DNA from: Methylotenera sp.
Lineage (GTDB): Bacteria > Pseudomonadota > Gammaproteobacteria > Burkholderiales > Methylophilaceae
Direction: 5' to 3'
Length of the DNA: 40,302 nt
Assembly: GCF_013141425.1 (NCBI RefSeq)
Contig: NZ_JABFRA010000024.1
Location: forward strand, 1 to 40,302
Part shown: positions 31,250 to 36,419 of the stretch, piece after piece
Layout of the letters: the number at the start of each line of letters is the position of its first letter
How positions within the stretch are numbered: position 1 is the stretch's first letter
Position numbers and translations under genes: made by a program
The notes under the pieces: model-generated
What the model saw: the letters and a program-made list of their open reading frames with translations, nothing else
What the model was told of the DNA's origin: nothing
Database searches by the model: none

Positions 31250-33034
31250 ATGAGCAAACCGACGATTTTAAGCAACCCAAATGGCCGCCTGACGCTGGGC
31301 GACACGTTACGCATGCTAGTCAGCGATGGCATTGTGGATAAAGCCCACGCAGAAAAGTTATACAAAGATCGCAAGCTTGATTCGTCCAACCTGCATCCGC
31401 TCGTGGTAGTCGGCGAGCAAAAATGGAAAAGTCTAAAAGCAGCGCAAAAACCCATCACCGTTGAAATGCTCTCAAACTGGCTTGCAGAGCGCTCTGGGCT
31501 TGATTTTTACCATATTGACCCACTTAAATTGGATTTTGGTTCTGCCGCTAAAATCGTTTCGCAAGGCTATGCGGAACGCCTAAAAATCATGCCAATTTCA
31601 GTAAAAAATGGTGAAGCTGTCATTGCTACCACGGAGCCCTTCAGCACCGACTGGATTACCGACCTTGAGCGTGTGCTTAAGATGAAAATCAAGCTGGTCA
31701 TGGCGAATCCGTTGGAGATTAGCCGTTATTTGCCTGAGATTTACAACCTTGCCAACTCAATGAATGCCGCTGATTTAGCCAAAGCGGGACAAATCGTTGG
31801 TGTGCAAAACTTTGAGCAATTAATTGAACTGGGCAAAGATAAAAACCTTGATGCCAACGAGCAGCATGTGGTGAATATTGTCGATTGGTTGTTCAAATAC
31901 GCCTTTGAACAGCGCGCCAGCGACATTCACTTAGAGCCGCGCCGTGGCATGGGCATCATGCGTTTTAGAATCGATGGTGTGTTGCATCAAGTGTATCAAC
32001 TGCCTCCGAATATTATGAACGCCATCACCAGCCGCATTAAGTTGCTAGGCAGAATGGACATGGTAGAAAAACGCCGCCCACAAGATGGGCGCATTAAAAC
32101 TTTAAGTGCAGAAGGTCAAGAAATCGAGCTGCGGCTATCCACGATGCCTACCGCGTTTGGTGAAAAATTAGTCATGCGGATTTTTGCGCCTGAAGTCTCC
32201 GAAAAAGGCTTTTTAGCGCTAGGTTTTGCCGAAGCGCAAGCGCAAATTTGGCACGGTTGGACAAAATCGCCCAACGGCATCATTTTAGTTACTGGGCCAA
32301 CGGGCTCGGGTAAAACCACCACGCTGTACGCCACTTTACGCACACTGGCCACGCCAGAAGTGAATGTATGTACGGTAGAAGAGCCGATTGAAATGGTCGA
32401 GCCTTTATTTAACCAAATGCAGGTACAGCAAAATATTGGCTTAAACTTCGCCGCGGGCATCCGCACCCTAATGCGGCAAGACCCCGACATTATCATGGTC
32501 GGTGAAATTCGCGATTTAGAAACGGCGGACATGGCGATTCAAGCCGCACTTACTGGGCATTTGGTGCTATCCACCTTGCACACCAACGATGCGCCTTCTG
32601 CTGTCACACGACTATTAGATTTAGGCGTACCTTCGTACCTGATACACTCAACGGTATTAGGCATTATGGCACAACGCCTAGTGCGTACATTATGCACCAG
32701 TTGCAAAGTGCCAGAGCCGATTGACCAAAGCACATGGGATGCACTGGTAGGCGACTTTAAACTCGCAAAACCAGCCCACATCTACAAACCGGTAGGCTGT
32801 TTAGAATGCCGCAATACAGGCTTTAGAGGCCGCAGTGGCATTTATGAAATGCTCACCATTACCCCTGCCCTGCGTAAACTTATTACGCCAGAAACGAATT
32901 TAGCCGACCTCACCAGACAAGCCTATAAAGATGGTATGCAGCCACTAGTAATCAACGGCGCTGAGAAAATAGCTGCAGGCATAACAACGATTGAAGAGTT
33001 GATGAAAGTGGCGCCACCGCTGGAGGCGGATTAG
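31250..33034 (+). CDS. GspE/PilB-family secretion ATPase (orphan)
   Basis: A 594-aa cytoplasmic hexameric ATPase. There is an N-terminal T2SSE_N-like domain (about 70-170) and then the core: Walker A GPTGSGKT (349-356), the Asp box CTVEEPIEMVE, Walker B DPDIIMVGEIRDLETA and the His box GHLVLSTLHTNDAPSAVTR. A tetracysteine zinc site is given by C482, C485, C517 and C520. It is most like GspE/PilB assembly motors, but no gspF, pilC, pilin or secretin gene is adjacent. AAGGA lies about 11 bp before the ATG. Confidence 0.92.
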   Translation: MSKPTILSNPNGRLTLGDTLRMLVSDGIVDKAHAEKLYKDRKLDSSNLHPLVVVGEQKWKSLKAAQKPITVEMLSNWLAERSGLDFYHIDPLKLDFGSAAKIVSQGYAERLKIMPISVKNGEAVIATTEPFSTDWITDLERVLKMKIKLVMANPLEISRYLPEIYNLANSMNAADLAKAGQIVGVQNFEQLIELGKDKNLDANEQHVVNIVDWLFKYAFEQRASDIHLEPRRGMGIMRFRIDGVLHQVYQLPPNIMNAITSRIKLLGRMDMVEKRRPQDGRIKTLSAEGQEIELRLSTMPTAFGEKLVMRIFAPEVSEKGFLALGFAEAQAQIWHGWTKSPNGIILVTGPTGSGKTTTLYATLRTLATPEVNVCTVEEPIEMVEPLFNQMQVQQNIGLNFAAGIRTLMRQDPDIIMVGEIRDLETADMAIQAALTGHLVLSTLHTNDAPSAVTRLLDLGVPSYLIHSTVLGIMAQRLVRTLCTSCKVPEPIDQSTWDALVGDFKLAKPAHIYKPVGCLECRNTGFRGRSGIYEMLTITPALRKLITPETNLADLTRQAYKDGMQPLVINGAEKIAAGITTIEELMKVAPPLEAD

Positions 33035-33101
33035 ATGAGGCCGCAGAACATTTAAAATAGTTTTCTTTACTAAAACTGAGGCTAAGCATTCGTCCATTTA
33101 G

Positions 33102-33140
33102 CTGCCCCACAAGCCAATATCCATGCGGGTCGCAGGGTAG
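33102..33140 (+). repeat. copy 3 of the AATATCCATG stem-loop family
   Basis: Between the GspE-like gene (+) and the SCO-like gene (-). The stem is less perfect than in the other copies (TGCCCCAC against GCAGGGTA), but the closing C-C/G-G pairs and the loop AATATCCATGC are kept. Similarity to copy 2 continues past the right arm (AGGT-ATTT). ATTTTTA follows a few bases later, so it could weakly terminate the + strand transcript. Confidence 0.7.
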
Positions 33141-33196
33141 GTCATTTTTATCCTCTTACATTAATGTCTGGCAAGCAACATCCTATTCAGGCGCAT

Positions 33197-33826
33197 CTAC
33201 ACCGTAAGCCATTTAAACGTACTGGCAATATTATTCGGCGACGACCGTAGCGACACCATGCCCCAGCGCTCTAATTTATCATTGCCATAGCGGGCTAGGC
33301 TGGTGTGATTTTGCAAATCGTTGTCCAGTTCAGGGTCTGCATCTGCAAAACCTAAAGTACGGCGCAAGGTTTCAACATCCTCGGGCTTCCCTGTCAGCAA
33401 ATCCCAGCCTGGCTTTGGTTTGAAAATTTCCGCGTATTTATTTAAGGCTTGCGGCGTATTTAACAAAGGTTGCAAGGTAATGGATAGAAAGAACACATCT
33501 TTGCCCATGCGACTACCTAGCATGTTTTGCACTTGCCTTAAATTAGCCATGGCTAATGGGCATCGCCCTTCTGAACATTGAATTAAGAAAAAATTAATTA
33601 ATACGGTTTTTTCACGCACCAAATCATCATAAAACCGAACGTTTTGATTGCGATGCGTGACCAATGGCACATTCGGTAAAAAGCCATTTTTGGCTAGTCG
33701 CGATAACGGCTCAGCAGGCTGGTTGGCCATGGACGCAACAGGCGCAGAAATAGTATTAGTAGCCGTCACCGATGTTGATAACAAAAATGGTGCTAGCCCT
33801 AAATTGAAGAACTCTCTTCTATTCAT
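33197..33826 (-). CDS. SCO1/SenC-like exported thioredoxin-fold protein
   Basis: A 209-aa protein with an N-terminal NRREFFNLGLAPFLL sequence, which resembles a twin-arginine (Tat) signal, and an exported thioredoxin-like domain. The metal-thiol site is CSEGRCP (C84, C89), spaced CX4C rather than the CX3C of typical SCO proteins. A conserved histidine (H174 in NHTSLARYGN) is retained as third ligand. SITLQPLLNTPQAL and KPGWDLLTG are SCO-family blocks. SCO proteins load copper into enzymes or manage cuproprotein thiols. It lies 45 bp downstream of the multicopper oxidase in the same operon. Good Shine-Dalgarno GGAG. Confidence 0.85.
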   Translation of the reverse strand: MNRREFFNLGLAPFLLSTSVTATNTISAPVASMANQPAEPLSRLAKNGFLPNVPLVTHRNQNVRFYDDLVREKTVLINFFLIQCSEGRCPLAMANLRQVQNMLGSRMGKDVFFLSITLQPLLNTPQALNKYAEIFKPKPGWDLLTGKPEDVETLRRTLGFADADPELDNDLQNHTSLARYGNDKLERWGMVSLRSSPNNIASTFKWLTV

Positions 33827-33871
33827 GATGCGTCTCCTTCACTTGAAAACACAAAAACTTTCGTAAAAGCA

Positions 33872-35782
33872 TCATACCAATTTCCACAACACCATCATGG
33901 CGTGATCTTCATGCACGGTATTGTGACAATGCATAACGTAGAGCCCTTTAAAATCGCGGAAGCGTAAGTAAATTTCGGCATAAGCGTTTTTTTCTAATGA
34001 AATAACATCTTTACGCCCTGCATATAGCCCGCCTACGGGTTTACCGTTATAACTCAACACCCGATGCTCCTCATGATGTACATGTATAGGGTGTGTCCAA
34101 CCACCGCCGCCATTCACAATCGTCCATTTTTCTGCCGTGCCTTCTTGTATGGTGGCGCTAATCACATTTCGATCAAATGGCTCTCTGTTTACAACCCACT
34201 CACCGCTTCTCCGCTTAAACTCCCAAGTGCGGTTGTTAGTAACAGGAGTCGAGATGTCAGGTAGTGGGCGTAAAGTACTTGGAATAATACTATTGTCGAC
34301 GACTGCTCCAGTATCCACGATAAATTTAAGAACCGGCACGCCAGGCGTTAACAATTTACCTGTGGGTTTAGCGCCACTGGTTTGCTCAGCACGGTTATAC
34401 AAAATGATTTGTGTCCCTGGCACATATTTTGAAAAATCCAGAATGACATCAAAACGTTCCGCAGGAACTTGTTGAAAGGTTTTTACAGTAATAGGGGCTG
34501 GCAGCAAATTACCATCGGTAGCGATAACAACAAAATTTGAATTATTGCTTAATGCCCATTGATAGGTACGTGACGGCCCGATATTCAACATCCTGAAACG
34601 GTATTTACGCCGCTTTACTGGGAAAAACGGCTGTATTTTGCCATTTACCGTGATTTTATCGCCTACAGCCCCATCGAAACAGGCCAGCGGGAAAAAGTCA
34701 GCTCCCAAAGTATCAAATTGCCTGTCGTGAAAGACCAAACCCACATCAAACTCAAAATTGGGTCCACAAGGCAAACGCCAGCCAGTGGCTTCCTCCGGGT
34801 CACCATAATCGCCCATAGTCGGGTTGGCATAAATACCTGGGGCATCGTAAATACTGGTCATGCCGACCAAGCCTGCATAAACGTTCTGTGCGGTAAAATC
34901 CAGCTTATGATCGTGGTAAAACAAGGTCCCCAGCCCTTCGTTGGGGTTACCTAAACCTCCAAATTGTTTCACTCCCGCATACACATTTGGGTAATGATGA
35001 TCCCAATAAGAGCCGGAATAATTTGGCAACAAGGGGTTGCCGTCGCTTTCAGCAGGCATGTGCATATTGTGCAAATGTGTACTGGTTTGATTAATGCCAA
35101 AACCTAAATTACGCGTAGGCAAATCGTTATGAATGCGCACAAAATGCGGTTCTCCATAACGCACGCGGAACATCGGGCCAGGAAACACGCCATCAAATCC
35201 CCATGCGGGCTGTCCCCCGCTCCCAGCAGGCAGGTCTTTATGCCAGACATGGTCGAATTGTTTTTCTCTTAGTTCATACCACTTTTCGGGTGGGCAATAA
35301 ATCAACCCATTAGCAGACCAAGCTTGATGCCCCATATTTTGCACCGGGAAATGGGAAGCCATTTCTGGGTGATCATACAAACAATGGATTTTGGAATCGC
35401 CACCCCTGCCCTGCGCATCACCTACAGGCATCGGCCCTGGCGCACCCCCATAACCATAATATCCTGTATCAATATTATCGGGGTGATTGCCACGTACTGT
35501 TTGTTTTTCAACCAAACGTGGCATTTCCTCTATCCAAGGGCGTGTTGGCGGACTAATCATCCCCAGTGGTGGAGCAAGCCCTGGAACGGGGCAAATGGCA
35601 GGGTTAGTGGGATCGTCGTCTTTTGCTAAGGCGCGTAAACTTAATCCTGACATTGGCAAAAGCATGCCTGTCGCAGCGCTTAACATCCCCATCTTAAGCA
35701 AATCACGACGCGTTAGCTTTGCCTGCGTTATCTGACGGTGCAAATCTATTGTATTTTGCACTAATTTTTCATATGAGCTCAT
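33872..35782 (-). CDS. exported multicopper oxidase
   Basis: A 636-aa protein with a twin-arginine signal (LTRRDLLKMGMLSAATGM, about 22-39). All four copper motifs are present: HLH (236-238) with H241, HDH (290-292), HPIHVH (564-569) and HCHNTVHEDHAMM (618-630). T1 plus a T2/T3 trinuclear centre are thus expected. Overall it resembles the bilirubin-oxidase/CotA-type or copper-resistance MCO group; substrate (phenols, Cu(I), Mn(II)) cannot be told from sequence. The Tat route implies folding with copper or cofactor before export. ATG with AAAGGGG upstream. Its partner is the SCO-like gene. Confidence 0.93.
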   Translation of the reverse strand: MSSYEKLVQNTIDLHRQITQAKLTRRDLLKMGMLSAATGMLLPMSGLSLRALAKDDDPTNPAICPVPGLAPPLGMISPPTRPWIEEMPRLVEKQTVRGNHPDNIDTGYYGYGGAPGPMPVGDAQGRGGDSKIHCLYDHPEMASHFPVQNMGHQAWSANGLIYCPPEKWYELREKQFDHVWHKDLPAGSGGQPAWGFDGVFPGPMFRVRYGEPHFVRIHNDLPTRNLGFGINQTSTHLHNMHMPAESDGNPLLPNYSGSYWDHHYPNVYAGVKQFGGLGNPNEGLGTLFYHDHKLDFTAQNVYAGLVGMTSIYDAPGIYANPTMGDYGDPEEATGWRLPCGPNFEFDVGLVFHDRQFDTLGADFFPLACFDGAVGDKITVNGKIQPFFPVKRRKYRFRMLNIGPSRTYQWALSNNSNFVVIATDGNLLPAPITVKTFQQVPAERFDVILDFSKYVPGTQIILYNRAEQTSGAKPTGKLLTPGVPVLKFIVDTGAVVDNSIIPSTLRPLPDISTPVTNNRTWEFKRRSGEWVVNREPFDRNVISATIQEGTAEKWTIVNGGGGWTHPIHVHHEEHRVLSYNGKPVGGLYAGRKDVISLEKNAYAEIYLRFRDFKGLYVMHCHNTVHEDHAMMVLWKLV

Positions 35783-36230
35783 GATTACACCCCTTTCAAC
35801 AACTAAGGATTACCGTGCATCATTCACCGACATCTGCAACCAGCCATCAAAGACACACGATTAAAAATCTCCTTACCTCATTGACTCCATTAATAATATT
35901 TTTCTTATTGTTAGGGGTACCAACTTACTAGCGTTAGCTTCAACGACCAGCCTATTTTTGCCACCTAATTCATTTTTTAAACTGCCAATTTCTGCTTATA
36001 AAGCAATAGTTTTTTTATTAAGATTTGTACTACATTGGATACCACATTAGGCTTGTTCTCACCGGCTCACAATCACCTAAACGTGTGGTAGGGTATTTGG
36101 TTTTATCGACATGCCATTAAAATAGCGAGTAAATTTAATGCTCACAAAATAATGGACGATAGTTAACTGTAAAGTAGGCAATTCGTTAAACGATAAATAA
36201 TCTAATTCAAGCTAAAAACGATCAAAGTCT
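35783..36230. other. intergenic region between divergent MCO and ilv genes
   Basis: AT-rich 450 bp without a supported gene. It must hold the promoter of the MCO/SCO operon, but no well-spaced -35/-10 pair stands out and no CueR- or CopR-type palindrome was recognised. A hairpin TGCTT-ATA-AAGCA at 35993-36005 followed by seven T (36010-36016) is terminator-like on the plus strand, but no plus-strand gene precedes it. Short frames lack ribosome-binding sites and were not called. Confidence 0.5.
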
Positions 36231-36269
36231 CTGCCCTGCAAACCAATATCCATGAGGCTTGCAGGGCAG
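36231..36269 (+). repeat. copy 2 of the AATATCCATG stem-loop family
   Basis: The best-folded copy apart from the terminator: stem CTGCCCTGC/GCAGGGCAG (9 bp), two A-T pairs, an A/C mismatch, two C-G pairs, and the 11-base loop AATATCCATGA. It lies 230 bp upstream of ilvI and 450 bp from the divergent MCO. No T-run follows, so it is not a standard terminator. Confidence 0.75.
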
Positions 36270-36419
36270 GTGATTTACACTCTATTTTAGAGATAAGATT
36301 TTAAGCCTCCGCAATAGCAACCGAACTTGCGTAAAGCTTGACGCGCGCGATGAACCAAGAACAATCGAATAAACAGAGTTTTATCTCAAAAAAACAATGC
36401 ATGCGCTACACTTTCATTC

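Follow-up and report, generated by a model that had tools for sequence, protein, structure and literature searches.

Pairs of a multicopper oxidase (MCO) gene and a SCO1/SenC gene have been described before. In Pseudomonas putida GB-1 and in strains MS-1 and DSV-1, mcoA is followed by a gene for a SCO1/SenC predicted copper chaperone as a conserved pair, and the manganese oxidases of strain GB-1 are MnxG, McoA and MopA (PMC11409713). Neighbours of the MnxS/MnxR type are also described for mcoA. The putative mnxG operon contains two SCO1/SenC genes with a metal-oxidising MCO (PMC11409713), and the ompB/mofA-like and Slit_1812-1818 clusters combine a putative SCO1-SenC chaperone with extracellular MCOs (PMC5566968, PMC12016527). 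In the cutFOG genes of Rhodobacter capsulatus, the MCO CutO requires CutF, a CX3C protein, for its activity (PMC8456105). Here we analyse a two-gene locus from Methylotenera sp. that encodes an MCO and a SCO-family protein, within a window (the whole stretch of DNA analysed) of 40,302 nucleotides, contig NZ_JABFRA010000024.1 of assembly GCF_013141425.1. An earlier, sequence-only reading of this window had suggested that such a pairing would be distinct. Given the mcoA, mnxG, ompB/mofA-like and Slit_1812-1818 clusters, the pairing is already known, and what is unusual in the window is an extra residue between the SCO cysteines.

As at mcoA, a SCO1/SenC gene lies directly downstream of the window MCO gene (PMC11409713). 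McoA (PputGB1_2665), which we liken to the window MCO by gene order alone, differs from it in its reported manganese oxidase activity. The putative mnxG operon shares the SCO1/SenC and MCO genes but comprises six genes, including cytochrome c-domain and SurA-like members, whereas the window has two. The ompB/mofA-like and Slit clusters, compared here by their descriptions and not by SCO sequence, have cytochrome c partners and, in the case of Slit, several MCOs. CutF provides a precedent for function, a dedicated protein with a cysteine pair that is needed by an MCO. It differs in its 118-residue length, its putative Sec signal and the position of its gene upstream of cutO, and it is not described as a SCO (PMC8456105). 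In the portions of the open-access literature available, the SCO descriptions for mcoA, mnxG, ompB/mofA and Slit mention neither cysteine spacing nor twin-arginine translocation (Tat), which is not proof of absence. The accessible part of PMC5566968 is silent on SCO cysteine spacing, and those of PMC11930936, PMC10734462 and PMC13386937 contain nothing on a SCO partner.

Two open reading frames (ORFs) occupy positions 33197-35782 on the minus strand of the window, the MCO gene first and then the SCO gene.

33872..35782, minus strand: three-domain MCO of 636 residues, with a twin-arginine leader and all T1/T2/T3 ligands (type 1, 2 and 3 copper; ORF; PF07731, PF07732 and PF00394)
33827..33871, minus strand: 45-bp intergenic gap of the presumed operon (from the ORF coordinates)
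33197..33826, minus strand: SCO-family protein of 209 residues, with a twin-arginine leader, CSEGRC (CX4C) and His174 (ORF; PF02630; Sco1/ScoI fold match)

The larger protein has the cupredoxin domains and four copper motifs of a three-domain MCO, with 10 histidines, one cysteine and an axial residue. Its Pfam matches are all over the cut-offs (Cu-oxidase_2, 61 bits; Cu-oxidase_3, 36 bits; Cu-oxidase, 25 bits), and its ligand set is complete: H236 and H238; H290 and H292; H564, H567 and H569; H618, C619, H620 and H624; and the axial M629. We take the copper-ligand roles of these residues to be those generally assigned in the family. By sequence, its nearest solved relatives are bilirubin oxidase (2xll, E 6.9e-52) and CotA; a structure prediction of the MCO had a mean predicted local distance difference test (pLDDT) score of 50 and was not used. 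Twin arginines, read by eye, lie near both N-termini, as NRREFF in the SCO and LTRRDLLK in the MCO, so that the two closely spaced, twin-arginine-bearing genes that the sequence-only reading described, including the full-ligand MCO, are indeed there. The Pfam TAT_signal model scores 12.6 bits on the MCO, under its cut-off of 22.7, and is not listed in the Pfam scan of the SCO. TatC is encoded in the same genome.

The smaller protein is a SCO1/SenC member by profile and fold, and a variant at its cysteine spacing. It scores 46.7 bits against Pfam SCO1-SenC (PF02630), above the gathering score of 22.8, and the NCBIfam scan listed no family for it. Its AlphaFold model has a mean pLDDT of 87, with ten-residue blocks at 94-98 across residues 41-200 except for block 81-90, and superposes on solved structures of Sco1/ScoI with Z about 17 (yeast Sco1 2b7j, Z 17.4 over 145 residues, root-mean-square deviation 2.3). 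ResA-type thiol reductases follow below these, at Z about 13. In the motif QCSEGRCP, both cysteines are present as Cys84 and Cys89, separated by four residues (CSEGRC) in place of the usual three of the SCO1/SenC CX3C copper motif. The third ligand that the sequence-only reading had pointed out, His174, is retained, and this distal-ligand histidine is invariant in two alignments (A1 and A3).

The pairing recurs across several phyla. An alignment of 15 MCO-adjacent SCOs served as the query against named genomes, and we took the best 80 of 554 relatives; the choice of seed sets the subfamily sampled, and the scan itself examined the SCO only. An MCO gene lies on the same strand within 250 bp of the SCO gene at 77 of the 80 loci, upstream in 76. 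The exceptions are L073, whose contig extends only ~245 bp upstream of the SCO, and L132 and L137 (MCO 1.4 kb downstream). According to the record names, the hosts are Methylotenera, other betaproteobacteria, Nitrosomonas, Methylobacter, other Methylococcales, Pseudomonas, Acidobacteria, Rokubacteria and one deltaproteobacterial metagenome-assembled genome (MAG). As a control we used 24 ordinary SCO loci, namely 23 lower-scoring matches of the family search and the other SCO of this genome. Candidate ORFs were obtained for 21, and three were dropped because the motif found none; the close relatives L004-L007 and L029, all MCO-bearing, were excluded by design. Neither an MCO within 250 bp nor twin arginines occurred among these ordinary SCOs (0/21 for either).

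Searches from other directions gave a similar picture. Starting from the MCO, a SCO was present in the fetched stretch at 15 of 17 places, which fall in 9 of 300 genomes of the order (the window's included); the two places without one are both in G151, where fewer than 100 bp follow the match. At the level of the phylum, a profile search covering 398 genomes found five with a close SCO, each with an MCO beside it (5/5), and a single-sequence scan of genome contigs gave no matches. Among eight plasmid records, the pair is direct in Skermanella, Fuscovulum and Limimaricola, and one small gene separates SCO and MCO in the Paraburkholderia and Comamonadaceae records.

We then assembled 95 full-length pairs from 115 distinct aligned SCOs, window included, leaving out 20 that lacked an MCO within 250 bp or whose MCO ORF was shorter than 480 residues (several of them cut by contig ends). 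Twin arginines, scored as RR in the first 45 residues of the SCO or 80 of the MCO in mechanically called ORFs, are found in 75 SCOs, 88 MCOs and both partners of 73 pairs. Together with the adjacency and the ordinary-SCO control, this bears out the suggestion of a SCO dedicated to an MCO, and a pairing confined to this genome is ruled out. The distance matrices of SCO and MCO correlate at r = 0.85 over the 95 pairs, the highest of 2000 permutations reaching 0.14; shared organism history contributes to this correlation. All 12 ligand residues are kept in 93 of the 95 paired MCOs, the other two being gapped at the N-terminal ligands, and both cysteines and the histidine are present in 112 of the 115 SCOs, a degree of retention that fits copper handling.

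Some relatives carry haem-binding additions. Four MCO-neighbouring SCO relatives (L055 7896-8843, L057 7848-8888, L058 7911-8909 and L045 3412-4344) are cytochrome-fused, with a C-terminal CXXCH haem-binding stretch. At the nearest CX4C relatives, L032 (10300-13650) and L033 (10550-13891), a protein of ~1115 residues with two CXXCH motifs is encoded upstream of the MCO. It matches CCP_MauG in L032, and no such ORF adjoins the window pair.

Taken at the level of sequence, these data describe a module: a ligand-complete MCO, a SCO fold with the Cys/Cys/His set, the order MCO-then-SCO, co-divergence of the partners and their presence as a unit at a site that is empty in relatives. We consider it reasonably probable that the SCO is a dedicated, Tat-exported partner that helps to load copper into the MCO. 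Both proteins would fold in the cytoplasm and then be exported by Tat. The periplasmic SCO would bind copper through Cys84, Cys89 and His174, with the additional loop residue tolerated, and would either pass copper to the apo-MCO or hold the type-1 Cys619 of the MCO reduced for copper entry. The loaded MCO could then oxidise an external substrate with O2.

A SCO beside an oxidase might instead act on thiols, reducing or isomerising MCO cysteines after export without donating copper. The proximity of the SCO fold to the ResA-type thiol reductases is in keeping with this, as are additional cysteines in the MCOs of the betaproteobacterial CX4C clade: among full-length pairs, Cys368 occurs in 8/8 of these against 0/87 others, Cys64 in 8/8 against one, and Cys339 in 6/8 against one. 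These cysteines track a single clade, however, and so are not independent evidence for a thiol role; shared descent alone could suffice. Moreover, the total cysteine count is three or fewer in 34 of the 95 partner MCOs, which makes disulfide repair unlikely as a general role, and the distal copper-ligand histidine is kept in 112/115 SCOs. We therefore regard a thiol-disulfide partner as an unlikely account of the pair. The Pfam family name, SCO1-SenC, would also allow a general assembly factor for the CuA centre of cytochrome oxidase that merely sits beside the MCO. Against this, the same genome holds another SCO, with CPDVC and on a different contig, which could take on the work for cytochrome oxidase; with the MCO adjacency at 77/80 loci in several phyla and the co-divergence of SCO and MCO, we reject a cytochrome-oxidase role for the window SCO as highly improbable.

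The identity of the oxidase raises a further alternative, in which the MCO detoxifies copper as a cuprous oxidase of the CueO/CutO kind and the SCO takes the place of CutF. The MCO does score 151.3 bits with the NCBIfam CueO equivalog, and a helper plus an oxidase follows the logic of cutF-cutO. This score is far under the CueO cut-off of 525, and the score with the copper-resistance oxidase CopA model (TIGR01480, 36.9 bits) is likewise far under its own cut-off of 478.95. Among proteins of solved structure, the MCO is nearer to bilirubin oxidase and CotA. We recognised by eye no copper-efflux or copper-sensing gene in the ORFs adjoining the pair, the other ORFs of the window being unannotated, and it is a different MCO of this genome, on contig C104, that follows a gene resembling, by eye, an outer-membrane efflux protein. 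A detoxifying cuprous oxidase thus seems quite improbable.

The spacing of the SCO cysteines is variable across the family. The longer CX4C loop singled out in the sequence-only reading proved real, clade-specific and recurrent, yet it is a minority form: the 115 SCOs comprise 95 with CX3C, 17 with CX4C, one with CX5C and two without cysteines, and CX4C accounts for 13 of the best 80 scan loci. All rows of a ten-row betaproteobacterial clade (support 100/99), the window among them, have CX4C. Outside this clade it is found in G121 and G077, whose three CX4C SCOs come from the same organism family but sit at another position in the tree (100/99), and in four rows from Acidobacteria or Rokubacteria. 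In a reduced SCO tree of 95 rows (of 116, eight long or duplicate and 13 near-identical rows were removed), the distribution needs four CX4C changes, two of them forced by well-supported branches. A single CX4C clade appeared in 0 of 200 bootstrap trees and had p = 0.033 in the approximately unbiased (AU) test. We thus reject a single origin of CX4C on these three grounds, though the rejection is moderate because the AU group was named after the tree had been seen. A sequencing error is rejected as well, since the spacing recurs in independent records. The extra loop residue is probably tolerated, and it probably arose repeatedly, not as a unique invention. A deltaproteobacterial paired SCO (L107 7857-8540) carries CX5C, as CVGEALC.

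Several observations weigh against copper loading by the SCO. The SCOs L040 3056-3691 (G164) and L146 1414-2142 (G779) lie directly downstream of an MCO and lack both the cysteine pair and the histidine; the MCO of L040 has the full ligand set. A cysteine-based copper site is thus not a strict requirement of the partnership, and these partners argue, as far as their sequences go, for a helper role other than cysteine-based transfer in some lineages. The CX4C spacing could itself alter copper affinity, and the core of the SCO model has its lowest confidence in the Cys-loop block 81-90 (mean pLDDT 77). In three of the eight plasmid records (Microvirga, Roseomonas and Sphingobium), the SCO lacks a profile-matched MCO as its neighbour. 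The operon in the window is a presumed one; promoter- and terminator-like sites there are no more frequent than in shuffled sequence.

In the window, the MCO-SCO pair is the entire insert between gspE and ilvB. Ten of 12 relatives examined have mnmA, GST, nadC, gspE and ilvB in window order, with gspE adjoining ilvB and neither SCO nor MCO; the remaining two stretches show ilvB only. Among the 52 genomes searched in the genus, only that of the window has the MCO at E 1e-20. The alignment to the closest of the 12 relatives, G131, stops at 33033 and restarts at 36391, and a dispersed repeat flanks the pair within the unaligned segment.

33034..36390, no strand assigned: segment unaligned to G131, between gspE and ilvB, containing both genes and non-coding flanks
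33114..33142, plus strand: left copy of the dispersed repeat flanking the pair, with no significant hairpin (z -0.4)
36243..36271, plus strand: right copy, oriented like the left one, within a strong hairpin (z -4.9)

In G149 and G090, one overlapping stretch aligns to both repeat copies at this place. At two or fewer mismatches, this genome has the repeat at nine places and G149 at 19; G131, G090, G078 and G006 give no match, so the copy aligned in G090 is a diverged one. The repeat may record the arrival of the pair, either at the repeat or by means of it.

Manganese is the leading candidate for the MCO substrate, a fair candidate and no more. Its candidacy derives from MopA-like RTX haem peroxidases that recur near the pair, with one in this genome, and from the two-gene core shared by published manganese oxidase operons. 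Fe(II), phenolics or bilin-like compounds are possible alternative substrates. The peroxidase of this genome lies on contig C105 (L160 1-3843), separate from the contig of the window pair, and combines an animal haem peroxidase domain (PF03098, 212 bits) with RTX repeats (PF00353, 54 bits). It shares this An_peroxidase-plus-RTX layout with MopA (PMC9765421), to which we liken it by architecture alone. An_peroxidase is found in three of 150 genomes of the family, two of these among the five with the CX4C pair (Fisher p = 0.0026). Across the fetched flanks of the pair, Pfam confirmed a peroxidase at eight loci: L036, from the same family; L069, a betaproteobacterial MAG; L105, L111, L136 and L140, all Nitrosomonas; and L057 and L058, on Rhodobacterales plasmids where the SCOs are distant and cytochrome-fused. 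Matches with strong repeat bias (L109, L039, L103 and L044) or to the N-terminal part only (L034 and L043) were not counted.

Other results speak against manganese. The co-occurrence of peroxidase and CX4C pair rests on small numbers, and G149 has the peroxidase and no MCO. Only five of the 80 scan loci have a confirmed flank peroxidase, most being without one. With simple motifs, we found no MnxS/MnxR-type neighbours (sensor kinase, sigma-54 regulator) at 25 Pseudomonas loci, and hence no locus could be named mcoA. Apart from these results, in the available part of a study of manganese-removing sand filters, Methylotenera is listed as a methane/methanol oxidiser, not as a manganese oxidiser (PMC12070406), and we found no open-access report joining Nitrosomonas, multicopper oxidase, SCO, peroxidase and manganese.

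A wider proposal, which we put forward tentatively and hold to be rather doubtful as a whole, is that a distinct SCO subfamily, exported by Tat in folded form, is dedicated to metallating a large MCO family across several phyla. The cysteine spacing would drift among CX3C, CX4C, CX5C and none because the site needs only transient transfer and, with the MopA-like peroxidase, the pair would form an unrecognised Mn(II)-oxidising module in Methylophilaceae and Nitrosomonas. The way in which multicopper oxidases acquire copper in the periplasm is understood only in part. This separable two-gene module, with its natural CX3C, CX4C, CX5C and cysteine-less variants, offers ready constructs on the loading of MCOs by SCO proteins and on the effect of cysteine spacing. 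If the substrate is Mn(II), methylotrophs and ammonia oxidisers would join the candidate manganese oxidisers.

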